A stretch of DNA of 61,147 bases. Origin: a virus. Positions within the stretch are counted from its first letter, which is position 1, and the number at the start of each line of letters is the position of its first letter. The notes below the pieces were generated by a model, which searched no databases, was not told the DNA's origin, and saw only the letters and a program-made list of their open reading frames with translations. The stretch is taken from positions 1 through 61,147 of IMG/VR virus record IMGVR_UViG_3300042472_000140; one strand, given 5' to 3'. A program made the translations under genes and the position numbers. Positions 7,351 through 61,147 of this stretch are shown in pieces.

Positions 7351-7605
7351 ATGAAGAACACAATAAGCAAGAAATACATAATTGACTACATCACTAGCAA
7401 CTATGGACCAATGAAGCACGACATCTATAGAATGTACTATGCTATAATATCAACATCTAAGGTATTCAAGCTAGACAAGAAGAGTCTGTTCCATTACATC
7501 ATCGAGCGGACTGACGCAATATTAGGAGCTACATCGTACGGATTTGATACTGCGTACGGTAGAGAGATTAGAGAGAGATTTGAGTATGAATATTATAACA
7601 ACTAG
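7351..7605 (+). CDS. Hypothetical protein, 84 aa
   Basis: Tyr-rich helical protein (MKNTISKKYIIDYITSNYG). First gene after ribozyme 2. No family recognised. Confidence 0.6.
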   Translation: MKNTISKKYIIDYITSNYGPMKHDIYRMYYAIISTSKVFKLDKKSLFHYIIERTDAILGATSYGFDTAYGREIRERFEYEYYNN

Positions 7606-8958: not shown

Positions 8959-9113
8959 AGAGTGTAAAGAAGAACATTAGGATGGGAGGCATAGAGTATG
9001 CCCAAAGAATGAACGACGTGATGTTGCGAGACAACATTATATCGGACAAGATGTATACAGAGGCAAGGGAGTTCATGTATAGAGTACGAACTATGAATAT
9101 AAACAAGCTATGA
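8955..9113 (+). CDS. Small basic helical protein, 52 aa
   Basis: MKSVKKNIRMGGIEYAQRMNDVML...; Met/Arg/Asn rich. ATGA overlaps at both ends. Confidence 0.5.
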   Translation: MKSVKKNIRMGGIEYAQRMNDVMLRDNIISDKMYTEAREFMYRVRTMNINKL

Positions 9114-9352
9114 GAAAGTTATTAAGTATAGTAATCCTATCGGTCGGACTGATGGGGTGCAAGAAAGAAGAGGTCACACCGAACAACACGTGTAACTGTG
9201 GAATAATAATGAACGACAGTGCGTCGAACTATTCGGTTGACATAAAGAACGACTGTAGTGGAAATGTTAAGACGTTTTATCTGAGCGAGGCTGACTGGAT
9301 GACGGCATACGTTGGGACGAATTTTTGCATAACTAATGTCGCAAATTGGTGA
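9110..9352 (+). CDS. Lipoprotein, 80 aa
   Basis: Type II signal peptide MRKLLSIVILSVGLMGC with the lipidated Cys at residue 17, followed by KKEE, which in Bacteroidota favours surface export only in some contexts. The mature part has further Cys residues (CNC, C, C) that could form disulfides. Possibly a superinfection-exclusion lipoprotein; inference. The first TGTCGC iteron of module B lies in its last codons. Confidence 0.65.
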   Translation: MRKLLSIVILSVGLMGCKKEEVTPNNTCNCGIIMNDSASNYSVDIKNDCSGNVKTFYLSEADWMTAYVGTNFCITNVANW

Positions 9353-9426
9353 TTAGTGTCGCTGTGTGTCGCTAGAATGTCGCTAGAAAAGTGCCTCAAT
9401 CCCTTTGTTTATCTACTTCTTTCTCT

Positions 9427-9445
9427 TTTTAGTGTTGCTGTGTAG
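9427..9445 (+). repeat. 19-bp repeat TTTTAGTGTTGCTGTGTAG, copy B
   Basis: Identical to the minus-strand sequence of 2504-2522. Confidence 0.85.
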
Positions 9446-9475
9446 TAAGAAGAGAAATAAAAATAAAAAAAGTAG

Positions 9476-9508
9476 TATTGAGTCCTATTATTGTAATAGG
9501 ACTCAATA
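9476..9508. terminator. 15-bp hairpin in iteron module B
   Basis: Perfect stem from TATTGAGTCCTATTA with its complement, 3-nt loop TTG. Read on the minus strand it is followed by CTACTTTTTTTATTTTTATTT, a terminator-like tail, although flanking genes are plus-strand. Confidence 0.6.
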
Positions 9509-9648
9509 AAAAATTTAAAAACTTTTTGACCTATTTTGCGACACAGCGACATTCACAGTCATTATTCGTTGACTGTCAATACGTTAACCTATGTTACTTA
9601 AACGAAGTTCACGACATTCTGCGACAGCGACCTTAAACTCAGGCAGTT

Positions 9649-9783
9649 ATGATAAAGTATATTTTTATAGTGTTTTTGATGAATATTTCGATTATATTTG
9701 GCGTCGTGTATTCATCACCAATTTTTTGGTTAGGACTTGTGGTAGTCCTGCCGACGTTTAATTATTTAATAAAGAAGGTATGA
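9649..9783 (+). CDS. Two-span membrane peptide, 44 aa
   Basis: MIKYIFIVFLMNISIIFGVVYSSPIFWLGLVVVLPTFNYLIKKV; almost entirely hydrophobic with two predicted spans. Starts just after iteron module B and overlaps the next gene. Confidence 0.5.
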   Translation: MIKYIFIVFLMNISIIFGVVYSSPIFWLGLVVVLPTFNYLIKKV

Positions 9784-10181
9784 ATGTAGGAGACGAGGTA
9801 ATAATAAGAAACCAGTTGGGAGGGCATCAGTTCTTCCTCAACGAGAAGGTCAGGATAACGGACGACATGGGTGGAGGTATATTCTATGCAACGAACGGGT
9901 ACTTCACGTGGGCTGTTCAGCTAGAGAACTTCGACGTGCTGATAGTCATGCCTAAGTTGAGGGCGTTCGTTGTGAAGCAGATGTCACCCAATTTTGGCAG
10001 GATAACAGACCAGTCTAACGGTAAACGTAGAGCTTTTGTTATTTTTAGTGATGACATGCTGAACGAAGCATCGATGATACTTTCAAAGATAGGTATAAAC
10101 ATTGTGTCTTACTCGTCACTAACTAAGGGCAGAGGTCTTCTGTTGAGCGACGACTTTGACACACCGATTCTTAATGTGTAG
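9780..10181 (+). CDS. Hypothetical protein, 133 aa
   Basis: N-terminus MNVGDEVIIRNQLGGHQFFLNEKVRI reads like a small KOW/SH3-type barrel; the C-terminal half is predicted mixed alpha/beta. No firm family. Last gene before the tRNA-like cluster. Confidence 0.55.
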   Translation: MNVGDEVIIRNQLGGHQFFLNEKVRITDDMGGGIFYATNGYFTWAVQLENFDVLIVMPKLRAFVVKQMSPNFGRITDQSNGKRRAFVIFSDDMLNEASMILSKIGINIVSYSSLTKGRGLLLSDDFDTPILNV

Positions 10182-10190
10182 GTAAGCTCC

Positions 10191-10209
10191 GACGGTAGGT
10201 TAAACCGTC
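10191..10209. other. Hairpin before tRNA-like gene 1
   Basis: GACGGT/ACCGTC, 6-bp stem with a 7-nt loop, extended by GCT/AGC outside a CC bulge; it runs into the 5' end of the first tRNA-like gene and could guide 5' processing. Confidence 0.45.
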
Positions 10210-10288
10210 AGCTAGTAGCTCAGTGGGGAGAGCGTGTTGTTTATAGGTTAGGCAACGAATGACGGGCGTTCAATTCGTCCCTAGCAAA
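10209..10288 (+). tRNA. tRNA-like gene 1 (13-nt anticodon loop)
   Basis: Canonical D arm (GCTC-AGTGGGGA-GAGC, 10218-10233) and T arm (GGGCG-TTCAATT-CGTCC, 10264-10280). Anticodon stem TGTTG/CAACG (10235-10239/10253-10257) encloses 13 nt (TTTATAGGTTAGG) rather than 7. The acceptor pairs only 5 of 7 (GCTAG/CTAGC) and no CCA is encoded. If the first seven loop bases are used, the anticodon would be UAU (Ile). Could be degenerate, or a modified tRNA-like RNA. Confidence 0.5.
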
Positions 10289-10307
10289 AAGTCTTCGTCA
10301 AGACTAA

Positions 10308-10334
10308 AGCCATCGTGTATTGTGCACGATGGCT
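10308..10334. other. 10-bp hairpin between the two tRNA-like genes
   Basis: Perfect AGCCATCGTG/CACGATGGCT stem with a 7-nt loop. No T-run, so more likely an RNA spacer structure than a terminator. Confidence 0.55.
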
Positions 10335-10340
10335 ATAATT

Positions 10341-10460
10341 GGTTAGGTAGAGCAGTTGGTAGCTCGATTGGTGAGCAGTAAAAAGTATGGAGTAATTACC
10401 TGAGGATATACATTCAGTCTTGCCGATAGGTCGCATGTTCGAGTCATGCCCTAGCCACCA
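10341..10460 (+). tRNA. tRNA-like gene 2 (51-nt anticodon loop, encoded CCA)
   Basis: Acceptor GGTTAGG/CCTAGCC (7 pairs, one wobble), TA, D arm GAGC-AGTTGGTA-GCTC, T arm GCATG-TTCGAGT-CATGC, discriminator A and encoded CCA (10458-10460) are all textbook. The anticodon stem ATTGG 10367-10371 pairs with CCGAT 10423-10427 but encloses 51 nt instead of 7. The stem can extend by TGAG/CTTG to nine pairs. No contiguous removal of 44 nt from the loop leaves U at position 33, so simple splicing to a normal loop is not obvious. Far too short for a group I intron. Confidence 0.75.
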
Positions 10461-10489
10461 CATGTTTCATGTGTGTTTGGTTAATGTTG

Positions 10490-10516
10490 ATTGGAGGGGT
10501 GTGGTGTCCCTCCAAT
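10490..10516 (+). terminator. Intrinsic terminator after the tRNA-like genes
   Basis: ATTGGAGGG/CCCTCCAAT, nine perfect pairs, 9-nt loop, followed by TATTTTAAT. Confidence 0.65.
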
Positions 10517-10547
10517 TATTTTAATGATTGTGAAACATAAATGACTT

Positions 10548-10599
10548 ATAACGTTTTGCAACTTGGCGCATTTTCAGTTGCGCTAAGGTGTGGTTATGC
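10548..10599. repeat. attC-like site 1
   Basis: Imperfect inverted repeat: ATAAC (R'') ... CTTGGCGCA / TGCGCTAAG ... GTTATGC (R'). The two outer boxes and two inner boxes are in the arrangement of integron attC sites. Its R' (GTTATGC) is complementary to the R'' of site 2, as expected when they bound one cassette. Confidence 0.7.
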
Positions 10600-10890
10600 T
10601 TAGGTTTACATAAATAAAATAATATGACGAAGGATAAATTTATCGGTATGTATTTAGAACGTGAAATGAAAGACCACGGATTGCCTTATGGTTTGGCATA
10701 CTATAACTTACTTGAAGAAAAAACAGAAAAAGCAGAAAGGGCTTGGACAAGATTTTGCAAAAGATACGGAACTGCCAAAACTAAAGGTAAGTAAACTTGA
10801 GCATAACGGTTGGGTATATGTGTTGTACGCCTAACCACTAACTTTAAAATTAAGTACGACACTTCATTGGCGTATAACATATATACCTTG
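10594..10890 (+). mobile_element. Integron-like gene cassette 1
   Basis: Bounded by G/TTATGC on the left and the R' of site 2 on the right. The left R' (GTTATGC) and its own R'' (GCATAAC at 10801-10807) are exact complements, the diagnostic pairing of an integron cassette. Carries one 56-aa gene. Confidence 0.65.
10624..10794 (+). CDS. Cassette protein 1, 56 aa
   Basis: MTKDKFIGMYLEREMKDHGL..., small, basic and helical with an aromatic core (LPYGLAYYNLL, RAWTRFCKRYG). No family recognised. Single gene of cassette 1. Confidence 0.55.
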   Translation: MTKDKFIGMYLEREMKDHGLPYGLAYYNLLEEKTEKAERAWTRFCKRYGTAKTKGK

Positions 10891-10896
10891 TTATAA
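10801..10896. repeat. attC-like site 2
   Basis: R'' GCATAAC 10801-10807 and R' GTTATAAGC 10890-10898. Long imperfect inverted arms (GGTATATATG-type and CGCC/GGCG) fold the roughly 100-nt site into one hairpin. Confidence 0.7.
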
Positions 10897-11171
10897 GCCG
10901 TTTTAAATTAAATAATTATGGCAAAGAAAATGCAAAATTTACCAGAAGGAATGATACCTGATAGGGATAATGTCGTTTACTACGATACAGAGAAAGGACA
11001 GTTTTATATTATTAAGTGGGAAGATAGTGGGAACAATGACATCCCTATCAGACATTACATACCGAAGCCTTAAATGACTTATAACGTTTTGCGGCTTTGT
11101 GTCTGTTTGCCCCTTGCACAATGCTTCAATTTACCACAAATGTTAATGAAGCAAATAGCACAAAACCGCTG
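10891..11171 (+). mobile_element. Integron-like gene cassette 2
   Basis: Left R' GTTATAAG (10890-10897) and right R'' CTTATAAC (11078-11085) are exact complements. Carries one 51-aa gene. Confidence 0.65.
10918..11073 (+). CDS. Cassette protein 2, 51 aa
   Basis: MAKKMQNLPEGMIPDRDNVV... ending IPIRHYIPKP. Predicted small beta-rich protein (YYDTEKGQFYIIKWED). No family recognised. Its stop codon is 4 nt from the R'' of its attC-like site, a spacing common in cassettes. Confidence 0.55.
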   Translation: MAKKMQNLPEGMIPDRDNVVYYDTEKGQFYIIKWEDSGNNDIPIRHYIPKP

Positions 11172-11177
11172 TTAGCA
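11078..11177. repeat. attC-like site 3
   Basis: R'' CTTATAAC 11078-11085; inner boxes GCGGCTTTGTG 11091-11101 and CACAAAACCGC 11159-11169; an inner hairpin GCTTCA/TGAAGC; R' GTTAGCAGA 11171-11179. The best-preserved site of the array. Confidence 0.75.
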
Positions 11178-11815
11178 GATGGCACGGTTTATTTAGTACA
11201 AATTTTAAATTGAAATACAAATGAAAAAAATTAGCACATTATTTAAGAAAGACCCACAAGATTTGGGCAGAGTAATCAATGAAGTGAACCCTGAAAATGA
11301 GTGGGGGTTTACAGATGGAATACCAACACGAAAGTATGATGGAACTGCAACTGCTATAATTGATGGCGAACTTTACAAAAGATACGATGTGAAGAAAGGC
11401 AGACAAGTTCCTGATGGTGCAATACCTTGTCAAGAAGCTGATTTAATAACAGGACATCATCCACATTGGTTAAAATGTAGCCACGATAAAAACGAGGATA
11501 AATACTTTTTTGAAGGATTTAATTCACTTGCTGAACTTGGCACGGTTGAAGATGGTACTTATGAATTGATTGGTGAAAAAGTACAAGGCAACCCCGAAAA
11601 AATAGAAGGACATCATTTGGTAAAACACGGAGCAAAAGTTTTGCAAGGATTGATTAACCCAATGACATTTGAAAACTTAAAGGAATACTTGGAGAAAGTA
11701 GATATTGAGGGAATTGTATTTCATCATAAGTCCTATGGTCATATGTGTAAATTACGAAAATCTGATTTTGGAATACGGAGGTAGTGCTTTCTGCTAACTA
11801 CTTGCTAACAGAACA
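11172..11815 (+). mobile_element. Integron-like gene cassette 3 (RNA ligase)
   Basis: Left R' GTTAGCAGA (11171-11179) and right R'' TCTGCTAAC (ending near 11800) are perfect 9-nt complements. The right site seems truncated (TACTTGCTAACAGAAC follows), so the right boundary is approximate. Confidence 0.6.
11221..11784 (+). CDS. RNA ligase (nucleotidyltransferase superfamily, DUF5565-like)
   Basis: 187 residues. Ligase motifs in order: motif I TRKYDGTATAI with the adenylated Lys at 38 (KxDG), a motif III-like region GTYELIGEK (112-120), motif IV DIEGIVF (162-167), and motif V MCKLRKSDFG with KLRK at 177-180. It is short, with no C-terminal domain, as in DUF5565-type RNA ligases. Predicted to seal RNA nicks via AMP-Lys and AMP-RNA intermediates. 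It is the sole gene of an integron-like cassette and lies near ribozymes and tRNA-like genes, so tRNA repair or RNA joining is a reasonable inference. Confidence 0.8.
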   Translation: MKKISTLFKKDPQDLGRVINEVNPENEWGFTDGIPTRKYDGTATAIIDGELYKRYDVKKGRQVPDGAIPCQEADLITGHHPHWLKCSHDKNEDKYFFEGFNSLAELGTVEDGTYELIGEKVQGNPEKIEGHHLVKHGAKVLQGLINPMTFENLKEYLEKVDIEGIVFHHKSYGHMCKLRKSDFGIRR

Positions 11816-11832
11816 TTCAATAACACGAAACT

Positions 11833-12060
11833 ATGCGTATTACCTTAGATTTATATTGCAAGTACTGTATAAAATTTGCACCTAACTATGTGTTTACTAC
11901 GGATCCAAAGCTGTTGGTTAACATGAAGTCAGGTCGGGTAATCAAGCAGGTGATAAAGGGTAGCACGATAGGTTATATTATTAACAGTAAGTTTTATTCG
12001 TTAGCCAGACTACGTGAATGTCTGGAGGCAATACCAGTAAAAGAAACCTTACCATTTTAG
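11833..12060 (+). CDS. Hypothetical protein, 75 aa
   Basis: Contains SGRVIKQVIKGSTIGYIINSKFYSLARLRECLE and ends in LPF, a pattern seen in Bacteroidota phage proteins of unknown role. First non-cassette gene after the array. Confidence 0.55.
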   Translation: MRITLDLYCKYCIKFAPNYVFTTDPKLLVNMKSGRVIKQVIKGSTIGYIINSKFYSLARLRECLEAIPVKETLPF

Positions 12061-12062
12061 TT

Positions 12063-12227
12063 ATGTGGATATCCCCAATTTTATTCATACTGTCGGCATT
12101 ACTGATGGTATGGTCGACAGCCAGTGTAAGGATACACTGGTTGCATCAAATCATATGTGCGATATGTACCATGTCGCTAGTTATTAACTTATTCTTTAGC
12201 TTATGTTATTTCGTTTCGATAATTTAA
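12063..12227 (+). CDS. Two-span membrane protein, 54 aa
   Basis: ATG at 12063 (MWISPILFILSALLMVW) follows the previous stop by 2 nt; an upstream in-frame start overlaps that gene. Two hydrophobic spans separated by RIHWLHQ. Directly upstream of the glucosaminidase; could act with it at the membrane (inference). Confidence 0.5.
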   Translation: MWISPILFILSALLMVWSTASVRIHWLHQIICAICTMSLVINLFFSLCYFVSII

Positions 12228-12229
12228 AG

Positions 12230-12736
12230 ATGGACTACGTGAGAGTCGATCTAAGACCACTTGTTATAGTGGCACTACTGTTTGTATGTCTGACGGTCTT
12301 ACTATCTCTCAGACCTACCGAGGTAAAGACTAAGGTACGGTACGTAGAATCCGAGATGATTGTGAAGATTCAGGGCATCGAGTTTAGTCCTGAGAACTTG
12401 CGCAAGTACATTAAGTTGTGTGGTATAAAGTTTTCCGATATTGTGTATGCCCAGGCTGTGCTTGAGAGTGGAAACTTTAGGTCAACTAGGTTCCTAGAGA
12501 GCAACAATCTTTTCGGAATGAAGAGGGCGATGTCACGACCTACAACGGCACAGACCGAGTATGGTGGACACGGACGTTACGACAGCTGGTTGCTCAGCGT
12601 CCAAGATTATGCTCTATTTCAGAGTGCGTTCCTTAGGGATATAAAGACTGAGAAGGAATACCTAAAGTACTTGTCTGACAACTACGCAGAGGATCCAGAT
12701 TATATTAACAAGGTAATTAAAATAAGTAAGAGATGA
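12230..12736 (+). CDS. Membrane-anchored N-acetylglucosaminidase-type muralytic enzyme, 168 aa
   Basis: Start at 12230 (MDYVRVDLRPL) is 2 nt after the previous stop. One N-terminal membrane span (LVIVALLFVCLTVLLSL), then a glucosaminidase (GH73-like) domain: YAQAVLESGNFRSTRFLESNNLFGMK with the catalytic Glu in LESGNF, and YDSWLLSVQDYALF. Cleaves peptidoglycan glycan strands. Situated among early genes and separate from the late lysis cassette, so it may serve local wall remodelling or delayed lysis rather than being the main endolysin. Confidence 0.8.
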   Translation: MDYVRVDLRPLVIVALLFVCLTVLLSLRPTEVKTKVRYVESEMIVKIQGIEFSPENLRKYIKLCGIKFSDIVYAQAVLESGNFRSTRFLESNNLFGMKRAMSRPTTAQTEYGGHGRYDSWLLSVQDYALFQSAFLRDIKTEKEYLKYLSDNYAEDPDYINKVIKISKR

Positions 12737-13008
12737 AGAACATAGATAAAGCTATAATGCACTGCTACAGAGAGTTGTATGCGAACGCTACACCTCCAGC
12801 GTCGTTTGACGAGCTGTTGGAAAATGCGACGGTTAACGAGCAAGGACAGAAGGCTATACCGTTCTTAGACTACGAGATAGATCAGGACGTGTTTGAGGAT
12901 ATAGTTGCAGACACTATCAAGGTGTACAAGATCAACAGAAGTTATTTAAAGCAGTCGTTCAGGTTTACGATCCTGATGGGCTGTAGTCCTAAATTTAAAA
13001 AGTTATGA
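12733..13008 (+). CDS. Hypothetical protein, 91 aa
   Basis: Helical protein (MKNIDKAIMHCYRELYANATPPASFDELLENAT) overlapping both neighbours by 4 bp. The C-terminus YLKQSFRFTILMGCSPKFKK is characteristic but not assignable. Confidence 0.55.
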   Translation: MKNIDKAIMHCYRELYANATPPASFDELLENATVNEQGQKAIPFLDYEIDQDVFEDIVADTIKVYKINRSYLKQSFRFTILMGCSPKFKKL

Positions 13009-13202
13009 AGAAGGTAAAGGTAGAGATTAATGACTACACGTACGACTGTGCGGATGGGTGCTGTACAGATTTTGGAACAGAGGTGATTGTGAATGACGTA
13101 GATCTTGACTTAAATAACCAGGACGTTGGAACGATAGTAAGACGGATCTTAGAACACCTAGGGTATGAGGTAGAGTTAATAGAAACATATAAACATAATT
13201 AA
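13005..13202 (+). CDS. Small Cys-rich protein, 65 aa
   Basis: MKKVKVEINDYTYDCADGCCTDFGTEVIVN: the CxxxCC cluster in a beta-strand context recurs in small phage proteins. Possible metal site. Function unknown. Confidence 0.55.
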   Translation: MKKVKVEINDYTYDCADGCCTDFGTEVIVNDVDLDLNNQDVGTIVRRILEHLGYEVELIETYKHN

Positions 13203-13203
13203 T

Positions 13204-13290
13204 ATGAGCAAAGCAATAATAATATGCGCAATAGCAGTAGTTTTGATAATAATAAGCGCATTAGTTCATAAATATACTAGATTACAGTAA
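13204..13290 (+). CDS. Single-span membrane peptide, 28 aa
   Basis: MSKAIIICAIAVVLIIISALVHKYTRLQ; one span and a basic tail. Starts 1 nt after the previous stop. Confidence 0.4.
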   Translation: MSKAIIICAIAVVLIIISALVHKYTRLQ

Positions 13291-13341
13291 ACCACTTAGT
13301 GTAAACAAAATCACACATAAACGGATTAAAACCGATTTACT

Positions 13342-13515
13342 ATGAAAAATATGACAGATGAAGAAAAAAAAGAAGAAGCTAAAAGAAGAGCTATAATCTT
13401 AATGACTTTAAAGGAAGGATATAAACCAAAAGATGAAGAGAAAATAATTAAGGTTAAAGAACCTAATAAAACTCCTAAGAATTATGGTAAGTTACTAAAT
13501 AAAAAAAAGTGGTAA
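13342..13515 (+). CDS. Small charged protein, 57 aa
   Basis: Lys/Glu-rich (MTDEEKKEEAKRRAIILMTLKEG...) ending in KLLNKKKW. AT-rich. No recognised family. Confidence 0.5.
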   Translation: MKNMTDEEKKEEAKRRAIILMTLKEGYKPKDEEKIIKVKEPNKTPKNYGKLLNKKKW

Positions 13516-13772: not shown

Positions 13773-13984
13773 CACCAATAGATTTACTATTAGAAAGACT
13801 AGCAGAAAATGGAATCTTACATAGCTCAGATGTTGCAGAAGCTAATGAGTTATTTAAGCAACAGATTATAGATGCTTTCAATGCTGGTGATTTAGATTCT
13901 GATACTTATTTTATTCCATTCTTAAAAGAAAATGATGAATCAGAAAACTACTACAATGAAACCTTTAAAAACACGAAAGAATAA
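13769..13984 (+). CDS. Hypothetical protein, 71 aa
   Basis: MTPIDLLLERLAENGILHSSDVAEANELFKQQI..., helical and acidic. Last gene before a short AT-rich regulatory gap. Confidence 0.55.
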   Translation: MTPIDLLLERLAENGILHSSDVAEANELFKQQIIDAFNAGDLDSDTYFIPFLKENDESENYYNETFKNTKE

Positions 13985-23614: not shown

Positions 23615-23655
23615 AATGTCCAGTTAATTTCAAACTTAACTGGACATTCTTTTTT
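23615..23655 (+). terminator. Intrinsic terminator between convergent units
   Basis: Perfect 13-bp stem AATGTCCAGTTAA/TTAACTGGACATT with 8-nt loop, then CTTTTTT on the plus strand. It ends the rightward unit; the late leftward unit ends at 23654 and may use the same hairpin. Confidence 0.9.
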
Positions 23656-26600
23656 ACTTCCTCTTTGAATACTTCTTATCGTATATGTATAAGGCTTGCT
23701 TTGATAACTTCATCTTAGCTTTACCCATAACTTCAGATAGTATTTTCTTTTCTTCACTATCAAGTTCTGATCCGTATCTGTTATAAAGTCTTAACGCTTG
23801 AACTTCAGGAGTTTCTTCATACAGTATATCAAGTATCGACCTATCGATGTTCATGTTCTTGATGTATGCATAATATTTTTTAGCGTACTTCTCCTGGTCT
23901 TTTTTCTCAAAGTTAGTTTTTATTAAATCTACTAACTCACCATTTGACAACTCCTTCCCGTCCTTATATATATTCTTGATGGTGTTGTACACCTTCTGTT
24001 CTTTGTTATATATATCTGTCTCGATAATCATCTCTTGATTTTCTATCTTGTCCTCTTCCTTATATCTGATGTTATCTTTGTTAGTAGTTCTCTTTAACTT
24101 CCTAGCTGAAGCATCAAATACATTACTAAAGGCATCTGAGAATTCAGCTCCGTATCCATCCTTATTAAAGAATCCATTCACAGATGCATAAAATATAGAT
24201 ATCATAGGGTTAGTATTCTCACTTGTAACTATCTTCTCTATAGCCGCCTTAGTTCTAATAGGAGACAACCCTAGACTAGGTGCTATCTTTTTATATATCT
24301 CCTCTACCTTATCGTCGTACATTCCCTCCGCACTAGCTGCTATCTTTTTATCTCTAGGTTCTCTAAAGATTTTCTCCCCAGTAAATGAATCCCAGTTAAA
24401 ACTATACGTTAGAAGTCCAGATATAAGTGGATTTCTAGATGCAATATCAGACGGTGAGAATGGAGTTGATGCCGATATAGATTTATTTATCACCTCTTGG
24501 TCTACATCATATTTAATTCCTGCCTCTGATAGTAAGTACTTGTACGTGAACTGCTCTGCCACAGTAGACATTACAGATAGAACTGGTAATTTTTTTACTC
24601 TGTAGTACTCGTACTCTCCATCCTTATCCTTCTTACCAGTAAATATTATATGGTATGTTGCCTTCTCGTAATCAGATAATGAATCTAACACCTCTAATAC
24701 TTTCTTCTTCTCTTCTTCGTCATCTCCAACTGATCTCATAAGTGCAGCTAAAGACAGTGCCGCTACTGATCCAGCCATTACTGCCGCTTGAACTAAGCTA
24801 GAAGTAAATCCTAGTGGGTTATTTTTAGCGTACTCAAGAGGTCTTCTAAATCCTTGCATGGATGCATTTAAGTATGGCATCACATTATCAGCCGTCTTAA
24901 CCCATGTCCCTCCCTGATTGAAGTCCATTGTCTCTCTAGCATTCCTTGTTGCCTCGTACATTATATCATCTAGTTCCTTAGCGTCAGGGTCTCTTCCGTT
25001 TTCTTTTTTGAATTTAGATATCTCGTCACCTTTTACTTTATCATAAACAGCAAGTCTAAACGCAAGTTCAGATTTTTCTCCTAGGTAGGACATGATGTTT
25101 CCGTAGCCAACTAATACCTTCTGACTGATATTTAGTATCTTATTTTTAGGAGACAGTGACTTCAATGCTCTAAGACCGTCGTTAGATAGAAAGTCCATAG
25201 CTCCACCATGCTCAACGTATTCGTTGTATATTACATTCTTTCTATTCTTAGTTGCTACTCCCTTCAAGAACTTTCTAACAAAGTCATAGCTTAACTGAGC
25301 ACCTCCAACTAGCTTGAACTTTGAGTACACATCAGAGAAGAATAATATGTTCTGGAAATCTACTGCTGTGTTACCAATAATGAACAACGGGTTACCTCCA
25401 GTCGCAAAGAACCTTAGTATTTTAGCTCCAGTTAATGTACCAATTAAATTAAGTGCCTGGTTTGAAGACTTAATATCTAACAGCTGTGTAGCATATTCAT
25501 CTTTAACTACTAGGTCCGTCTTCACTCCATTCTTAAAGAATGACACTATGCTGTACCCTATAGGCACATTATTTTGGTTGTACTTATACTGAATAGACCC
25601 AGTAGATGTCTGCTTTACTATAGGGTTATCTATTATGAATTCAGACATAGCGTCTCTCTGTTCTTGAGTTGCTCCATCAATAGCGTCACTGAACTCATTT
25701 AGCATCTTATTCTCGAACGCTCGTCCTTCAACAGACATAACGTTCAACATAAGGAGCCACTTAGAGTCAAATATTATAGCGTTCTCGTTACTGTCAGTAA
25801 GAGCCATTATATCTTTCTTACTAACTCCTAACTTACTAGCCTCTCTATCTACAGTAGCTGGGTCTAAGTTATCTCCAATGATGTACTTAATAGTTCTAAT
25901 AGGAGAGTACTCTATATCTCTCAGGTTTATGTAAGTCTCTTCGTTTATTCTACCTGACTCGTACAGCTTCTTTAAGTTTTCTGAGAACACACCAAAATAT
26001 TTAGTAGCTCTTTCGCTTAAGTCGTTGAATTTCTTTTCACCTATCTTATTCTTTATAGCATCTAAATCTTTTAAAGCCTTCACCTCAGAGTAACCGTCCA
26101 TACCAGTGTATGGCTCTGCTCCTTGCTTGGCTCTACTCTCATTAATAGCTACCATACGTCTTGCGTATATGATATCATCAAGTGTATCTAAATCATTCTT
26201 TTTCAAATCTTTATAGATATCAGCCTCAGCATTTTTAAATCTGTAGTTAGCAAAACCACTAGCTCCAGCCTTGTTGACTAATAAGTTGTAAGCTCTTATT
26301 GACTCCTTGCTTCCGATGCCTTTAATTAATCTCTTAATGTCGGACTGTCTATCAATAAATTTATTTCTTATTGCTCTAATTCTATCTCTTATAGTCAGCT
26401 TCTTCTGTCTAGCCATAAGTTCTTTCTGACTAGCTTCCCTTATCTTACTCACAGTGACGTCACCAGTGTCTGGCTCCATTGCGTCGTTGATATTCTTGTC
26501 AGAGTATCCCTGGTCCTTTAAGTACTGACGGATAGCAGCGTCAGAGAACCCTTGGTCCTTAGTCAACTTAACTATGTCGTTGATGGTCTTAGGCTTCTGC

Positions 26601-29600
26601 TTACGTGGAGATATACTCTCTTCGATACCAGTAACCTCTTCAGCTATCTGCTTACGTGGTGTGATCTGCTTGGATATGTTCTTAGGGAACCTCTTGAAGT
26701 TTATGCCTCCACCTACTCCGTCACCTTTGAACGTGATCATGTCACCATCGATACTAGTTATCTTACCCTTAGACCCGTACACCTCAACGTCATCTCCTAC
26801 CTTGTAAGTTTCTTCAGCTATAGGCTTCATAGATACATTGTCCTTAGAAGCCTCAAGCGACATTGTAGTCTGTGCTCTGAGTTCGTTATTTCTCCATCTA
26901 GCAACGACCATGTCATACCCGTTCTCGTTAGCGACCTGAGTTATAAATGCCAACTGGTAGTTAGGGCTGAATGATTGTGAAGGACGTGCAACCTCGAATC
27001 TTTTCTTAGCCTCGTCATAGAAGTTTTCTGGATCACTATTAAAGTCGTACACCTTACCGTTAGGAACAAGGACAGTGTGTAGTACGTTACCAACACCTGG
27101 CTCAACCTGGTTGTCCATCGTGTAGTACATCGCAAGTCCTCCAACAGCAGATAAGGCTCCACCTTCTTCCTTCCCAGTGATGATATTCTCTCCAGTTCCA
27201 GGCTTAATTACATCTCTATTGTCGTTTGAGTAGTGATGGAACACGAAGTTTCCGCTCTTATCTTCAGTCAACTTGTTTGACAGCTCTGGAGCAAGTTGCT
27301 TTCTAGAAGAAATTTCTTTTATCCCTATGCCATAAGGAGCAACAACTTGAGATTGCTCAGATCGAGACATATCATCACGATATTTATCCTTTATTTCAGA
27401 AGGCATTATATCATAAGAATTAATTTTCTTATCTGGAACACCTACAACAGAACCTAATATATCTGTTTCATATGTAGAATGTTTAGATTTTTCACCTAAT
27501 TTATCAGCCTTTAAAACTAACATAATATCTCCCATCTCAAAATTATTATCTTGATAGAATCCATCACGTAAATCATTTGGATCAACAAATGCATTATATT
27601 TTTCTAATACTTTTTTTGCTAGAGTATTTTTAGTTTGTTGTTCATTTATAGCTATAATAAAATTCTTTCTATCAGCCCCCATAAATAGGTCTTCATAAGA
27701 ATTATATTTTTCTAATATAGATTTTATCTTAGATGTTGGTTTAGATTCTAGTAATTCTTTTTTAAAGTTATTAAATTCAATAGCTCCTTCAATTCTTCTT
27801 CTAATTAAATTAGTAACAGTCTTGTTGAATAATTTTGATCTCTGAGGGGATCCACTTATAATAAATATATAATCAGATTTAGCTATATTATTATCTAAAG
27901 TTTTCTTTTTAGCACCAGAAGCCCATATTACATTATTACTTCTATTCTCAGGATCTAACGCAAACGATGGTCCAGCATCTAAGAAATGTTCTCCATTTAA
28001 TACTGAATCAAAATAATTTCCTCTTCCTAATTGATCAGCAACCCAAAACCAAACCTTTTGTTTTTTAGATGAAATATCAGATATTAATGAATCAATATCA
28101 ATAATATCTTCTTTCGTTACAAAAGTTAATTTTTGATCTTTACTTACTTTTACTTGTTTTCTTGGTTCAGTAGATTCAACAATATTAGTTGTAACACCAG
28201 TTATTGACATCATATTAATATCAGCCTCACTAATCACCTTACCCTTAGCTACCTTTCTAGCTATAGTGTTGAGCATGTCGTAGGTCTCGTTTCTGTTGAA
28301 CGGATCTAATTTAGATATCTTAGCCAACTTATCTATCCATCTGAAGATAGTATCCTTAACAGATGTAGAAAATGAATTATAGTTCTCAGCTAATACACCT
28401 ACTAGTTCAGCTAGTTTCTCTTCGTTCTGAATATTCTCATCGTAGTTAGATATAAAGTCATTCAATTTTTTATTTACATCTACATCAACTTTAAGCCATA
28501 TAGCTTCAATCATTCGTTTAGTTATATCAGCAGCATTTTTATCTGTCTTAACCTTATTTATTAAGATAGCATGGAATACCTCGTGAGCTACAGTTCTATT
28601 GTTAGCTGACGTTCCATTAATATGTATGGTATTCGTTTTTGCATTAAACTCACCATTTGATGATTGCTTCAGTCCTTCTTCTTTTGTAGCAGCTCTATAT
28701 GACTCATCTGTATCATGAACTATAAACTTAGTGCCTGGTATAACCTTAGATACTGCCTTAGCTGCTCTAGCTACTGCCTTAGATATTTTCTTATTAACTA
28801 TAGTATACGCCTTCTGGTCAATCTCTTGATCTGTTCCAGACAATAACTGTCCGATAGCCTCAACCTCTTGCTCTACGGTAGGACCTTCTTTTGTAGCTGG
28901 TAACAAAGGAGTTATCAGCTTGTCATACTTGTCGTATATCTCGTTGTACTTCGTTAGGTCTTCAGGAGTCATTAGGGTCTTATCTACTTCACCGTTAACC
29001 TTGTAGTCTTCTATGTTAGGTATAACGTCAGATAACTCCGCTTGTTCTTCTGCTCTTAAGGTTGCTACTTGGTCTTGTTCAGTAGGTTGAACTGCTGATG
29101 CCTTATCTTGTAAATTAAACAATTCTGACTGTGCAACATCAAATTTATCTGCCTTAGAACGAAAGTCTGGATTAGCCATAACTTCCTCTTCAGTTAAACC
29201 TTGATCTTCCAACTCAGCTTGCAGGATGGTTTTTTCATCCCAAAGAGAATCAACTTCTGCCTGCTTAGCGTCTACTTCTTCTTGCTGTACTTCGCTTGTG
29301 ACAACGCTATCGCCACGATCTGCTTCTGGCTGCGTGGTTTCCCGTTTGCCCCCTTCGCTGATCCCGACTTCTTGTTGTCCTTCACCAGTTCTCTGATATT
29401 CGCTTGTACTGACTTCTTGGACGTTGCTTTCTTTAGTGGCATCTTCTGATATCTTTGTTAGTTCGTTATTTATCTCGGCAACTCTTGCCTTCTGTGATGC
29501 GACAAGGTTTTCATCCTTGCCAGCAATTTCTTTTTCTAGTTTATTTCTTTCTAATGTAAGAGTTAATGCACTCTTTAAATTCTCGCCAGTTATATTATCA

Positions 29601-32356
29601 GGAATTTTATTAAACAGACCTTGCACATCATTCATAGCATCTAACTGGTTCTGAGCTTCTGACTTTGTTATTTTTCCAGAAAGCATTCCAGTCTTTAACT
29701 TTGCAATAAAAATTTTCTTAATCTCTGAATCTTCTGCAATTGATTTTAGAAAATCTACATCTTTAGCATTATATAGGCTTATGTCTCCATTTCTAATCTT
29801 CTCATATGACGTACCAACAGATGTCATAACCATACCTCCTATAGCTTCAGCTGCTGCGTCTTCTAATACCATAGCTGCACCTTCACTAAAAGAGTCAGGA
29901 GTATCAAAGTATTCTCCTTGAGATAAGTCTGTTGCAAGTTTCCCGTCAGTCTTGTCTTTGTATATGTTGTATAGACCCTTCAGTCCAATGTCTAATACAA
30001 GAGACTGAGTTGCACCAGTCTCTGCCTCTGCTAGTGTACCTCCTATTACTTTTAATCCAAACTTAGCTATATTTGATTTTATTTCTTTTTCAAGAACACT
30101 CTCAAATACTTTTTTGGTTGTATTTCCACCTATCTTACCAGCTACTGAAAGTAATGATTTAGCTATTAATGATTTAGCTAATGGGTTCTTTGACATCATT
30201 GTAGTTACACCAATATTCTCTAAGATACCCATACCTATAGCATAAGGAACAGTAATTATAGATCTATCCTTCACAGATGTAGTTTCAAAGTCAGGATCAT
30301 TAAGCATCTCATCCTCAATAGAACTATAAGCCTGAGTCCCTAATGCTGATATTCTAGCAGCAGCTCCACCTGGAACAAGCATAGCTGGTAATGATTCAGC
30401 AACTCCAGCTAATGCTTTCTCAAAGAAACCACGATCAGCTGATTTTCTATATTCTTCTGTTGTACTTGATGTTCCTAATGTTTCAATTAATGATGATTTA
30501 ACAACTTCTTTAACTTGTTTTTGTCTTTTATTAGCAAGATAATTTATAGATTCTTCTTTACTGTATTTTTTATCTTTTAAATAATTTTTTATTTGAGGGT
30601 CTAGCATTTCATAATCAAGATCTCCTGAATAAGATGCAGCTAATCCAACTGGAAATTCTATTATTTTAGATACTCCACTAACAGTAGAGTTAAGCATGTT
30701 ACCCCAAAACCCACCAATTTTTTCTTTTGTCAATAAGTATTTTCCAGCTACAGTCTCTAATTTTTTCATTTCAGACACTACTGCATTACCACTTTTCTTT
30801 ATTTCTAAATTTTTATTATCTATATCTTCAGCTCGCTGTATAAATTCAGATGACATTGCGTCGTACTGTTCTTTATCAATTTGTCCAGAGTTTACTTTTT
30901 GATTAAATTCATTCAGATCTTTTTGATATTGTGCAGTTTCTGTTTCAATCTTTTTATATGAATTGCTTACATCATTTAACTGTATGTTATAGTTATTAGT
31001 TTGATCTTGTATAAAGTTATTAGATAAATAAGAATCTATTTGTTGTTTAATAACTTTCTTTTGATCATCAGTTTTTGCTTGCTTTAATGAGTAGTAAAGT
31101 TTATCAATTTGATCTGTTCTATCTTTTAATTGTTTAGAAACATCTTTTTTATATATTTTATATATATCAGAATTATAAAAATTACTTATTTCATCTTTAG
31201 TTCTATTTATTTCACTTTGATTTCCAGTATTACCAGCTGTATTTCTATTGCGTCTTAAATCATTTAAATAAATGTCAATTTCCTTCTTTTTACTGTAAAA
31301 GTCTAATGATTTAAAATCATCTACATATTGATCAGACTTTAAATATTCATTTAATTTTTTATTTCCTTCTGCAATTGCTGAGTTTCTTGCCTTATTTATT
31401 GAATCAGATAATGATCCATCTGGAAGTGGTATATCAGATATTTTTTGTCTTAATTCTTTTATATTATTATTTTTTGTAGATTTATCTGATTTATTTAAAT
31501 CCAAGAATGTTCTCAGTTTTAAAGCCTCTGTTGGGTTAGATTCATCTAAACCTACCTCCATAGTTTTACCATTCTTAGCGGTAACAGTAACGTAGTCTGT
31601 ACCCATGCCAGATTGCTCAAATGAGAACCCTAAGTTACCGTACTTGTTTTGTAAATATGGAACTACAGTCTCCTCTGTATTTGATACTAACTTAGAATTT
31701 ATATCAGCAAATTTAGGAGTATTATCTTCTACAACATTTTGTAGTACTGTAGGTATTTTTACTTTTTTCTTAAATTGATTATTTAGAGCAGTTATAGCCG
31801 TAGCGTCAGTTAACGTGGTCCACTTTGTAGCAGTAGGCTGCATTCGCTCCCAGTTACCATTATATACTCTGTACTTATTAGTTTCTTTACCAGGGACTCC
31901 AACAAAAACTTCTTCTATATCTGATGCTCCAGCATTCTGATTGAAGTGCTTATTAAGTGCTGCTACTCTAGCTGGATCAGTTATATTTATTTTTACACTG
32001 ATAGGAGCTGATACTGGTTTATTTCCGACTACTAATCCAGTTCCTGCATCTTCCTTCCATATTGGTGTACCAGTAGATTCATCTAATATATACTTCTTAT
32101 CTCCCTTCCCAGGATACCCAGTGAATACTTGTTGTTTAGCCTTTCCTCCAGACGATACCAAAGGCTTTTGAGCCGTCTTTGGCTTTGATGTAGCCAATGT
32201 AGATTCCAGTAGATCTGTAACGGGCGAAAATATAACACCCTTCTTCTTTGGAGCAGGCGTAGCTTCTTTTTTTTTTACTGGTTCTAATATATCACTTGGT
32301 TTAGGAAGAGATGATTTATTCAATATATCACCTGGTTTTGGTAAGTTATTTGGCAT
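23654..32356 (-). CDS. Giant polyvalent virion/ejection protein, 2,900 aa
   Basis: Largest gene, end of the late operon. N-terminus (PKPGDILNKSSLPKPSDIL) is low complexity, then long coiled coils. A zincin motif TVAHEVFH (His1258-Glu-x-x-His1262) suggests a metalloprotease. A mixed region about 1400-1920 includes FHHYSNDNRDVIKPGTGE, resembling ADP-ribosyltransferase-type polyvalent domains. (T/S)PRKQ motifs recur near 1396, 1685 (SSRKQ), 1903 and 1919. Tandem UBA-like GFSDAAIRQYLKDQGYSDKNI is near 1940. An LPD38-like segment GGNPLFIIGNTAVDFQN is near 2320, and a hydrophobic segment lies near 2530. Probably packaged and ejected with the DNA; enzymatic activities are inference. Confidence 0.75.
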   Translation of the reverse strand: MPNNLPKPGDILNKSSLPKPSDILEPVKKKEATPAPKKKGVIFSPVTDLLESTLATSKPKTAQKPLVSSGGKAKQQVFTGYPGKGDKKYILDESTGTPIWKEDAGTGLVVGNKPVSAPISVKINITDPARVAALNKHFNQNAGASDIEEVFVGVPGKETNKYRVYNGNWERMQPTATKWTTLTDATAITALNNQFKKKVKIPTVLQNVVEDNTPKFADINSKLVSNTEETVVPYLQNKYGNLGFSFEQSGMGTDYVTVTAKNGKTMEVGLDESNPTEALKLRTFLDLNKSDKSTKNNNIKELRQKISDIPLPDGSLSDSINKARNSAIAEGNKKLNEYLKSDQYVDDFKSLDFYSKKKEIDIYLNDLRRNRNTAGNTGNQSEINRTKDEISNFYNSDIYKIYKKDVSKQLKDRTDQIDKLYYSLKQAKTDDQKKVIKQQIDSYLSNNFIQDQTNNYNIQLNDVSNSYKKIETETAQYQKDLNEFNQKVNSGQIDKEQYDAMSSEFIQRAEDIDNKNLEIKKSGNAVVSEMKKLETVAGKYLLTKEKIGGFWGNMLNSTVSGVSKIIEFPVGLAASYSGDLDYEMLDPQIKNYLKDKKYSKEESINYLANKRQKQVKEVVKSSLIETLGTSSTTEEYRKSADRGFFEKALAGVAESLPAMLVPGGAAARISALGTQAYSSIEDEMLNDPDFETTSVKDRSIITVPYAIGMGILENIGVTTMMSKNPLAKSLIAKSLLSVAGKIGGNTTKKVFESVLEKEIKSNIAKFGLKVIGGTLAEAETGATQSLVLDIGLKGLYNIYKDKTDGKLATDLSQGEYFDTPDSFSEGAAMVLEDAAAEAIGGMVMTSVGTSYEKIRNGDISLYNAKDVDFLKSIAEDSEIKKIFIAKLKTGMLSGKITKSEAQNQLDAMNDVQGLFNKIPDNITGENLKSALTLTLERNKLEKEIAGKDENLVASQKARVAEINNELTKISEDATKESNVQEVSTSEYQRTGEGQQEVGISEGGKRETTQPEADRGDSVVTSEVQQEEVDAKQAEVDSLWDEKTILQAELEDQGLTEEEVMANPDFRSKADKFDVAQSELFNLQDKASAVQPTEQDQVATLRAEEQAELSDVIPNIEDYKVNGEVDKTLMTPEDLTKYNEIYDKYDKLITPLLPATKEGPTVEQEVEAIGQLLSGTDQEIDQKAYTIVNKKISKAVARAAKAVSKVIPGTKFIVHDTDESYRAATKEEGLKQSSNGEFNAKTNTIHINGTSANNRTVAHEVFHAILINKVKTDKNAADITKRMIEAIWLKVDVDVNKKLNDFISNYDENIQNEEKLAELVGVLAENYNSFSTSVKDTIFRWIDKLAKISKLDPFNRNETYDMLNTIARKVAKGKVISEADINMMSITGVTTNIVESTEPRKQVKVSKDQKLTFVTKEDIIDIDSLISDISSKKQKVWFWVADQLGRGNYFDSVLNGEHFLDAGPSFALDPENRSNNVIWASGAKKKTLDNNIAKSDYIFIISGSPQRSKLFNKTVTNLIRRRIEGAIEFNNFKKELLESKPTSKIKSILEKYNSYEDLFMGADRKNFIIAINEQQTKNTLAKKVLEKYNAFVDPNDLRDGFYQDNNFEMGDIMLVLKADKLGEKSKHSTYETDILGSVVGVPDKKINSYDIMPSEIKDKYRDDMSRSEQSQVVAPYGIGIKEISSRKQLAPELSNKLTEDKSGNFVFHHYSNDNRDVIKPGTGENIITGKEEGGALSAVGGLAMYYTMDNQVEPGVGNVLHTVLVPNGKVYDFNSDPENFYDEAKKRFEVARPSQSFSPNYQLAFITQVANENGYDMVVARWRNNELRAQTTMSLEASKDNVSMKPIAEETYKVGDDVEVYGSKGKITSIDGDMITFKGDGVGGGINFKRFPKNISKQITPRKQIAEEVTGIEESISPRKQKPKTINDIVKLTKDQGFSDAAIRQYLKDQGYSDKNINDAMEPDTGDVTVSKIREASQKELMARQKKLTIRDRIRAIRNKFIDRQSDIKRLIKGIGSKESIRAYNLLVNKAGASGFANYRFKNAEADIYKDLKKNDLDTLDDIIYARRMVAINESRAKQGAEPYTGMDGYSEVKALKDLDAIKNKIGEKKFNDLSERATKYFGVFSENLKKLYESGRINEETYINLRDIEYSPIRTIKYIIGDNLDPATVDREASKLGVSKKDIMALTDSNENAIIFDSKWLLMLNVMSVEGRAFENKMLNEFSDAIDGATQEQRDAMSEFIIDNPIVKQTSTGSIQYKYNQNNVPIGYSIVSFFKNGVKTDLVVKDEYATQLLDIKSSNQALNLIGTLTGAKILRFFATGGNPLFIIGNTAVDFQNILFFSDVYSKFKLVGGAQLSYDFVRKFLKGVATKNRKNVIYNEYVEHGGAMDFLSNDGLRALKSLSPKNKILNISQKVLVGYGNIMSYLGEKSELAFRLAVYDKVKGDEISKFKKENGRDPDAKELDDIMYEATRNARETMDFNQGGTWVKTADNVMPYLNASMQGFRRPLEYAKNNPLGFTSSLVQAAVMAGSVAALSLAALMRSVGDDEEEKKKVLEVLDSLSDYEKATYHIIFTGKKDKDGEYEYYRVKKLPVLSVMSTVAEQFTYKYLLSEAGIKYDVDQEVINKSISASTPFSPSDIASRNPLISGLLTYSFNWDSFTGEKIFREPRDKKIAASAEGMYDDKVEEIYKKIAPSLGLSPIRTKAAIEKIVTSENTNPMISIFYASVNGFFNKDGYGAEFSDAFSNVFDASARKLKRTTNKDNIRYKEEDKIENQEMIIETDIYNKEQKVYNTIKNIYKDGKELSNGELVDLIKTNFEKKDQEKYAKKYYAYIKNMNIDRSILDILYEETPEVQALRLYNRYGSELDSEEKKILSEVMGKAKMKLSKQALYIYDKKYSKRK

Positions 32357-60265: not shown

Positions 60266-60491
60266 TTCGGTAGGTCTTGTCGTCGATTGTTATGTGGTGA
60301 CCCTGAGCCTTGTCGAACATTATGTTGACACCAACGACAACATACTTGACCTCTGGACCGACGTGTATAACCAAGCCCTCGTGGTAGCGCATCTTGGATG
60401 CGTTGTCAGCTGTTGTTATCAAACCAGTCATGGACTCCTTGTGGTCCACGACTGATTCTTCAATTATAATGTAGTTACTTAGAACCCTCAT
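60231..60491 (-). CDS. groES: Co-chaperonin GroES
   Basis: 86 residues, slightly shorter than bacterial GroES (about 97). The fold-specific pattern is visible: an N-terminal MRVLSNYIIIEE strand, a mobile-loop region (HKESMTGLITTAD), a GLVIHVGP strand, VVGVNIMFDKAQGHHITIDDKTYRIIREQDV, and a terminal hydrophobic VAVVL. It begins inside the groEL 3' end. Its 3' end overlaps the convergent winged-helix gene by 35 bp. It would cap the phage GroEL or the host chaperonin. Confidence 0.9.
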   Translation of the reverse strand: MRVLSNYIIIEESVVDHKESMTGLITTADNASKMRYHEGLVIHVGPEVKYVVVGVNIMFDKAQGHHITIDDKTYRIIREQDVAVVL

Positions 60492-61147
60492 CGTCTCGAA
60501 TGTTTGTTATTATTGCGTTAGTACTTAGTATCGTTGTTGCTACAGACACTGCGTTCTTTAGCGCAGACCGAGTAACCTTCGTAGGGTCAATAACTCCCAT
60601 CTTCATCATGTCTCCGAACTTGTCGTTCTTCACGTCGTACCCGTAGTACCTAGACTTGTTGTTACATATCTCCACACCGATCTCGATGTGGTTCTTGCCA
60701 GCGTTCTTAAGGATCCGTCTGAACGGCTCCTCGATGGCGTACAGCATTATGTCTGCCGCCTTGTCATAAGACTCGGACTTGCCTAGCTCTATTACAGAGC
60801 CAGCCCTCAGTAAAGCCATGCCTCCTCCAGGAAGTACGCCCTCCTCGATGGCAGCCTTTACAGCCAACACAGCGTCGTCCGTTCTATCTTTTAATTCCTT
60901 CTGCTCGATGTCAGAGTTAGCACCGACGTAGATTACGCCCACGCCTCCAGAGATGTTGGCTAGACGCTCTTTAGTGAACTCGATGTCCTCTTGGTCAATC
61001 TTGAGGTCTAAACTATCTGTGAGGGCTTTAAAATGCGTGTCAAGGTTCTCGTTAACTTCTTCTGACGGTATGATGATCGTCTTTGACTGTCCTACGATCA
61101 CCTTTGACGCACGTCCCAACCCAGCAAAGTCCACGTTGGCAACGTTG
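60475..61147 (-). CDS. groEL: Chaperonin GroEL, C-terminal part
   Basis: C-terminal part of the groEL that starts at 1038; bases 61021-61147 duplicate 1-127. The second equatorial region is visible: NISGGVGVIYVGA, then TDDAVLAVKAAIEEG with the expected Asp (D398 equivalent), then VLPGGGMALLRAG. The protein ends in IRDDEGSK and lacks the Gly-Gly-Met tail common in bacterial GroEL. The stop overlaps the groES start by 17 bp, so the two are translationally linked in the order groEL-groES, opposite to the usual bacterial operon. Confidence 0.95.
   Translation of the reverse strand, partial: NVANVDFAGLGRASKVIVGQSKTIIIPSEEVNENLDTHFKALTDSLDLKIDQEDIEFTKERLANISGGVGVIYVGANSDIEQKELKDRTDDAVLAVKAAIEEGVLPGGGMALLRAGSVIELGKSESYDKAADIMLYAIEEPFRRILKNAGKNHIEIGVEICNNKSRYYGYDVKNDKFGDMMKMGVIDPTKVTRSALKNAVSVATTILSTNAIITNIRDDEGSK
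61021..61147. repeat. Terminal direct repeat, right copy (circular closure)
   Basis: Exact copy of bases 1-127. Collapsing the two copies joins the two halves of groEL without a frameshift. Confidence 0.95.

Follow-up and report, generated by a model that had tools for sequence, protein, structure and literature searches.

Integrons are known as gene-capture platforms of bacteria, and occasional integrons and attC clusters are also known in phages. In the class 1 integron, unlike in the phage arrays studied here, the genes point away from attI and go with the other attC strand, and the class 1 integrase carries an insert specific to IntI. As described by Qi et al. (2023), 17 CALINs and a few integrons have been identified in Vibrio phages, in P1 (class 1) and in Shewanella phages, and phage attC sites, other than those of the present locus, were accepted by IntI1 (PMC9892861). 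Phage CALINs, phage-borne integrons and the activity of IntI1 on phage attC sites are thus already known (PMC9892861). The accessible part of that paper holds no statement on gene inversion, on a phage attI at the 3' end or on an insert-less phage integrase. A search of the open-access literature, a scope that leaves out preprints and most subscription journals, returned no report of inverted phage cassettes, of a 3' phage attI or of insert-less phage integron integrases.

In this work we focused on a viral record of 61,147 bases, hereafter called the window, which bears three one-gene integron cassettes at positions 10545-11814. The record encodes a terminase large subunit (phrog_6681), an endolysin and a primase/helicase-like protein, in line with the phage origin proposed by the first-pass annotation. 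A tRNA-Pro-like gene (10208-10289) precedes the array, and the endolysin gene follows it at 12203. We consider, with a probability of roughly 0.78 for the reading as a whole, including its mechanism and use, that the window carries a short array without an integrase of its own, which belongs to a phage-type integron whose cassettes are inverted. Elsewhere in the window, a single open reading frame of 2900 aa occupies positions 23654-32356 on the minus strand, and the end of the record (60475-61134) encodes the C-terminal part of a Cpn60/GroEL-type chaperonin (PF00118).

The covariance model for attC was trained on 26 phage sites from other records, the window being excluded. Further loci were collected with an 18-nucleotide attC sequence, TAACGTTTTGCGGCTTTG, which was found in 81 viral stretches and in 91 genome stretches, nearly all of the latter from Bacteroidota. 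For the orientation counts the attC strand was fixed and genes of at least 60 aa were considered. PF03237 and phrog_2 were poor viral markers in this material, and phrog_6681 and the portal and tape-measure families were used instead.

Table 1. Features of the cassette array and its 3' border in the window. E, covariance model E-value; z, score of the folded + strand, on which the R boxes pair.
Feature	Position	Strand	Description
attC site 1	10545-10599	+	R'' CTTATAAC (10545-10552), R' GTTATGC (10593-10599); compact; left end of the array; E 3.6e-4; z -3.0
Cassette 1	10593-10807	+	215 nt from R' to R''; GTTATGC(T) at 10593 complements (A)GCATAAC ending at 10807; own R'/R'' match of 8 nt
ORF of cassette 1	10624-10794	+	56 aa; no known family
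attC site 2	10801-10897	+	R'' GCATAAC, R' GTTATAAG; 19-bp stem; E 5.3e-13; z -4.0
Cassette 2	10890-11085	+	196 nt; GTTATAAG at 10890 complements CTTATAAC ending at 11085; own R'/R'' match of 8 nt
ORF of cassette 2	10918-11073	+	51 aa; no known family
attC site 3	11078-11179	+	R'' CTTATAAC, R' GTTAGCAGA; E 2.1e-14; z -2.9
Cassette 3	11171-11798	+	628 nt; GTTAGCAGA at 11171 complements TCTGCTAAC ending at 11798; own R'/R'' match of 9 nt
ORF of cassette 3	11221-11784	+	187 aa; RNA ligase, motif KYDG
attI-like array end	11795-11814	+	last R'' joined to TACTTGCTAACAGAAC; similar junctions at the array ends of other phages
75-aa gene	11833-12060	+	directly 3' of the attI-like end; missing together with the array in sister phage L132

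The array shows the layout of integron cassettes or of a CALIN: hairpins ordered R'' L'' L' R', complementary R' and R'' boxes within each cassette, and a single compact gene per attC, in tandem and in one direction (Table 1). Over the 61-kb window the covariance model gave exactly three attC matches, the next best not falling below E 0.19, which bears out the three single-gene cassettes between attC-like repeats put forward by the first-pass annotation; every R'/R'' match it reported is present. Its layout stood for the three hairpins and failed at the right end, where cassette 3 terminates in an R'' joined to attI-like sequence and no full attC follows. The model found no site in the two sister phages without the block (L132 and L007), nor in four loci bearing the RNA ligase gene without attC. 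A hairpin scan over the remainder of the window yielded none of comparable score. Among 300 dinucleotide shuffles of positions 9000-13500 none produced even one such hairpin, compared with three hairpins and two matched cassettes in the real sequence. The third site is 83% identical at the DNA level to attC sites of cultivated Flavobacterium phages.

Circular cassette intermediates leave a trace in the boxes: the left box, R', matches the R'' of its own cassette but not the R'' within the same attC. The left box of each window cassette consists of GTTA plus 4-5 bases. Over the loci gathered by the time of this count, 128 of 179 pairs formed by the R' and R'' of the same cassette, lying in adjacent sites, showed a match of 9 nt or more, compared with about 2% of random pairs and with no match within the same attC.

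The open reading frames of cassettes 1 and 2 had no convincing match in Pfam, PHROG or PADLOC, and no protein relative among the loci compared. That of cassette 3 matched phrog_14301 (E 3e-67), the Pfam family RLIG1 (E 2.4e-6) and the structure of RNA ligase 1 (PDB 9c6l, E 1e-9). The phage RNA-ligase family phrog_14301 is an ordinary gene in some other phages and a cassette in others. The sole relative found for the 75-aa gene lies at 9105-9326 of locus L082, also directly after an array end.

At the right border of the array, TAAC is fused to TACTTGCTAACAGAAC. Other phages have a junction of the same kind, in which the last cassette's own variable R'' is fused to a flank conserved within the phage group. 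The flank TAACTACAATATTACATG was present in 15 of 15 cultivated Flavobacterium phages, joined to at least seven different last cassettes, and the flank TAACTAATNGNTAANCGCCATA was found at the array ends of nine viral contigs besides L006 and L011 (11 in all). A 22-base pattern of the TAACTAATNGNTAANCGCCATA-type site was searched for in 84,980 bacterial and archaeal genomes and found in none. Aligned over 54 distinct viral and 16 bacterial ends, the array-end consensus has T at +1, +4 and +8, and CGC at +12 to +14. The conserved array-end flank is an attI-like site: the hallmark of attI, namely a conserved site to which the newest cassette's variable box is joined, was found in all 15 of the Mumin-type phages described below and in the 11 contigs. 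The end in the window is a degenerate version of it. In the phages this site lies at the 3' end of the genes, and a textbook integron is arranged otherwise. Two observations were made on other array ends. Locus L135 contains the attI-like site twice (7551-7572 and 13958-13979), at least one copy having its own cassette array, and in L064/L090, ahead of the recombinase, the attI-like site is immediately preceded by a very long stretch that is rich in GC, resembles a hairpin and contains nested palindromes.

The genes of the window array are inverted with respect to their usual orientation relative to attC; as this orientation is a common trait and no formal criterion, the array is still classed as integron cassettes, in a variant form. 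The same inversion prevails in phages. Over 90 viral loci, 268 of 273 cassettes had their gene in sense and 5 in antisense, whereas Bacteroidota chromosome cassettes with the same attC were antisense in 66 of 75 cases, 9 being sense. When both sets were drawn by the same 18-mer, the sense:antisense ratios were 145:4 for viral and 9:66 for bacterial cassettes, and counted by locus they were 61:0 and 3:30, respectively (p = 2e-21). The class 1 integron of plasmid R388 has the bacterial-type orientation. Phage cassettes are thus gene-inverted relative to bacterial ones. The mode of cassette insertion cannot alter the orientation of a gene within its cassette. Since this orientation is fixed, the phage and the bacterial cassettes represent two differently built populations sharing one attC type. 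The three bacterial exceptions, mostly sense (L200, L228 and L241), carry methyltransferase cassettes of phage families, and these family matches suggest that they may be prophage or phage DNA. In the window the gene-sense strand is the one whose R boxes pair upon folding, and the gene-sense strand of the phage attC corresponds to the recombinogenic bottom strand of the canonical attC.

Comparison with related phages revealed presence and absence of the array as a block. In L132, a sister phage whose DNA identity is about 90%, the array, the attI-like end and the 75-aa gene are jointly absent, so that the block is not invariant among related phages. The two sequences align at 88-95% identity up to position 10524 of the window and again from 12062, with 11 bases in between. 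A similar block distinguishes L006 from L007, two sequences with 95% identity along most of the length they share. Upstream of the array, between the tRNA-Pro-like gene and the first site, positions 10308-10436 differ from L132, where another tRNA-like sequence is located.

Cassette 3 was also found in L011 at 92% DNA identity (window 11170-11808). Beyond the cassette itself the homology extends by a single base to the left and by some ten to the right; the site preceding the cassette differs, and in the stretches compared L011 and the window have no other protein in common. Since the RNA ligase gene occurs in phages without any attC, cassette 3 is thus a phage gene made into a cassette, and for the window cassettes a route from phage to phage seems to fit better than a Bacteroidota host. 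The segment comprising attC3 and the 5' leader up to the start codon (window 11069-11230) shares 81-83% identity with its counterparts in L089, L062 and Mumin-type phages, in front of different genes. From this likeness despite different genes, attC and 5' leader seem to travel together as a single unit.

Turnover of such arrays is visible in cultivated phages. Fifteen virulent Flavobacterium phages carry visible arrays of 3-13 cassettes; 32 of the 33 distinct cassettes in these genomes are sense. These Mumin-type phages are virulent Baltic Sea phages of Flavobacterium LMO6 and LMO9 (PMC7077304). The distal cassettes B, C, D and E are common to most of them and the attI-proximal ones differ, so that array content varies most at the attI end. 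For instance, the order is W R A S G B H C D E in snusmum6-1 and R X A S G B H C D E in snusmum9-1. Between hemulen6-1 and stinky9-1 there is a clean loss of two internal cassettes, O and G, and morran9-1 has one additional cassette. No PF00589 recombinase was found in the ten Mumin-type genomes that were searched whole. Many of the cassettes are annotated as DNA methyltransferases, and PMC7077304 reports that a specific methyltransferase is missing from LMO9 phages that plate poorly on LMO6, its authors linking the reduced plating to this absence. The Mumin-type phages and their hosts LMO6 and LMO9 offer a ready laboratory system.

A PF00589 search of the 61-kb record found no tyrosine recombinase, consistent with the lack of a visible integrase already noted in the first-pass annotation. 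An integrase gene beside attI, as in a complete integron, is missing from the window and present in G006 and L026, the array of the latter including an RNA ligase cassette. In all, a recombinase gene adjoins the end of an inverted array in six viral lineages (G006, G002, L026, L064/L090, L086 and L130); the array-end junctions of L064/L090 and L086 are less clean, and G002, like G055, has few clearly viral genes. G006 has the complete set of inverted array, attI and tyrosine recombinase, and encodes a portal protein and the terminase family of the window, its array being located between replication and structural genes. Arrays accompanied by the window's terminase family were also found in G003 and G013. 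In G002 (L285-L286) at least 27 attC sites extend over 20 kb of a 170-kb viral contig, with the recombinase at the end, and many of the cassettes are of methyltransferase size.

All six phage recombinases cluster together, with moderate support (81/89). Among solved structures, those nearest to the G006 enzyme are XerA, an XerC-like archaeal enzyme and IntI4, the last matching in two pieces. By protein search the only relative of this integrase was itself, and a home-made HMM run over the collected loci found more. On Bacteroidota chromosomes the best IntI-like protein often adjoins an attC array (L215/L252, L184/L251, L165/L260, L176/L270 and L166/L271), and the best family for these recombinases is NF040815 (tyrosine recombinase/integron integrase). 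Both the phage and the Bacteroidota enzymes fall below the curated cut-off of the IntI profile TIGR02249 (265 bits) and are therefore not IntI by this measure. Positions 180-238 or so of the profile (about 60 positions), the IntI-specific insert region near patch III, are unmatched in both, and tools that require the IntI insert may miss the Bacteroidota recombinases.

Several other explanations were weighed. The first-pass annotation had assumed that the phage picked up its cassettes in a Bacteroidota host, in other words that the array is a piece of a bacterial CALIN carried passively. The same attC sequence does occur in integrons of Bacteroidota chromosomes, with an IntI-like recombinase adjoining the array. 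We nevertheless consider this origin very unlikely: gene orientation, opposite to that of 66 of the 75 chromosomal cassettes, and array end are both of the phage type, related phages encode their own integrase, and cassette 3 belongs to a phage RNA-ligase family that occurs in other phages with and without attC, including L011 at 92% identity. That the hairpins are transcription terminators or regulatory elements resembling attC by chance is hardly credible. They form stems between small genes, as terminators would, yet the left box matches the right box of its own cassette and not that within the site, the covariance model is specific, homology stops at the R boxes, and such sites also adjoin integron recombinases. 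The terminator and chance readings were rejected on the box matching, the 0 of 300 shuffles and the covariance model results.

The remaining alternatives concern how the array is maintained. It might be a fossil: an ancestor's integrase would have assembled it, and today it would be passed on by descent or relocated by ordinary phage recombination only. The record has no recombinase, cassette 3 is followed by no full attC, attC1 is compact and weaker, and the attI-like end is degenerate, all of which would suit a fossil; the intact R'/R'' pairs in three of three cassettes, the difference from the sister phage by a whole block and the occurrence of cassette 3 at 92% identity in an otherwise unrelated locus make us regard it as possible though doubtful. 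The window's own array may be inert, given that it has no integrase, a degenerate attI-like end and, in attC1, the lowest-scoring site. Finally, phage arrays might turn over without any integrase, by homologous recombination of attC repeats that resemble one another. Phages recombine often, and attC sites of different phages can exceed 80% identity, so that such exchange could explain part of the turnover. As the general explanation it appears unlikely to us, since an exchange inside the hairpin would break the match of a box to its own partner, and the joints are found at the R box, with the variable 10-nt box still matching its own partner; moreover, integrase genes adjoin such arrays.

The phage-type integron with inverted cassettes would function as follows. 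The cassette comprises a single attC hairpin, the 5' leader, a single gene and the R'' box, and the array reads 5'-attC-gene-attC-gene-...-R''-attI-3'. The cassette unit would form a circle. A tyrosine recombinase related to IntI and XerA, devoid of the IntI insert, would fold the gene-sense attC strand; by recombination of attC with attI, new cassettes would enter at the 3' end of the array, and by exchange between attC sites internal cassettes would leave. The position of recombinase genes beside arrays suggests that these enzymes move the cassettes. In some relatives (G006) the phage itself encodes the enzyme, which elsewhere would be supplied by the Bacteroidota host or by a co-infecting phage. 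Transcription of the cassette genes would proceed from upstream phage sequence toward attI and, in some phages, would continue into an integrase gene of the same orientation that immediately follows attI. The cargo, DNA methyltransferases in many phages and an RNA ligase here, may serve as a swappable counter-defence kit shared mainly among phages. As a cassette that entered an array of the opposite type would be read in reverse, orientation may keep the phage and bacterial pools apart, a phage gene in a bacterial array probably not being read by the integron promoter, and vice versa. More broadly, we lean towards the view that Bacteroidota phages possess an integron class of their own, with inverted cassettes, a 3' attI and, in some lineages, a dedicated insert-less integrase, whose largely separate pool would reshuffle counter-defence genes in lytic phages.

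The arrays of cultivated virulent phages hold as many as 13 cassettes, and a single 170-kb viral contig bears at least 27 attC sites; these arrays look like working platforms, which come with their own attI and sometimes with their own integrase; the reversed gene orientation provides a simple marker separating phage from bacterial cassettes. Among the described systems, the phages of PMC9892861 likewise have attC sites and cassettes, in virulent as well as temperate phages, with methyltransferase cargo, and in one of them, Polaribacter phage P12002L, the methyltransferase gene is oriented to the detected attC as in the window. The class 1 integron (R388, IntI1) resembles the phage arrays in its attC architecture and in having attI at one array end beside the integrase. 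In Spirochaete integrons the orientation of the integrase is reversed (PMC9668308); these share with the phage arrays an unusual orientation of one part, which is the integrase in the former and the cassette genes in the latter. The Bacteroidota chromosomal integrons, such as that of Chryseobacterium sp. Leaf404 (L215), have the same attC type and the same attI consensus as the phages and a related recombinase (NF040815) that also lacks the IntI insert, whereas their cassette genes are reversed relative to the phage form.
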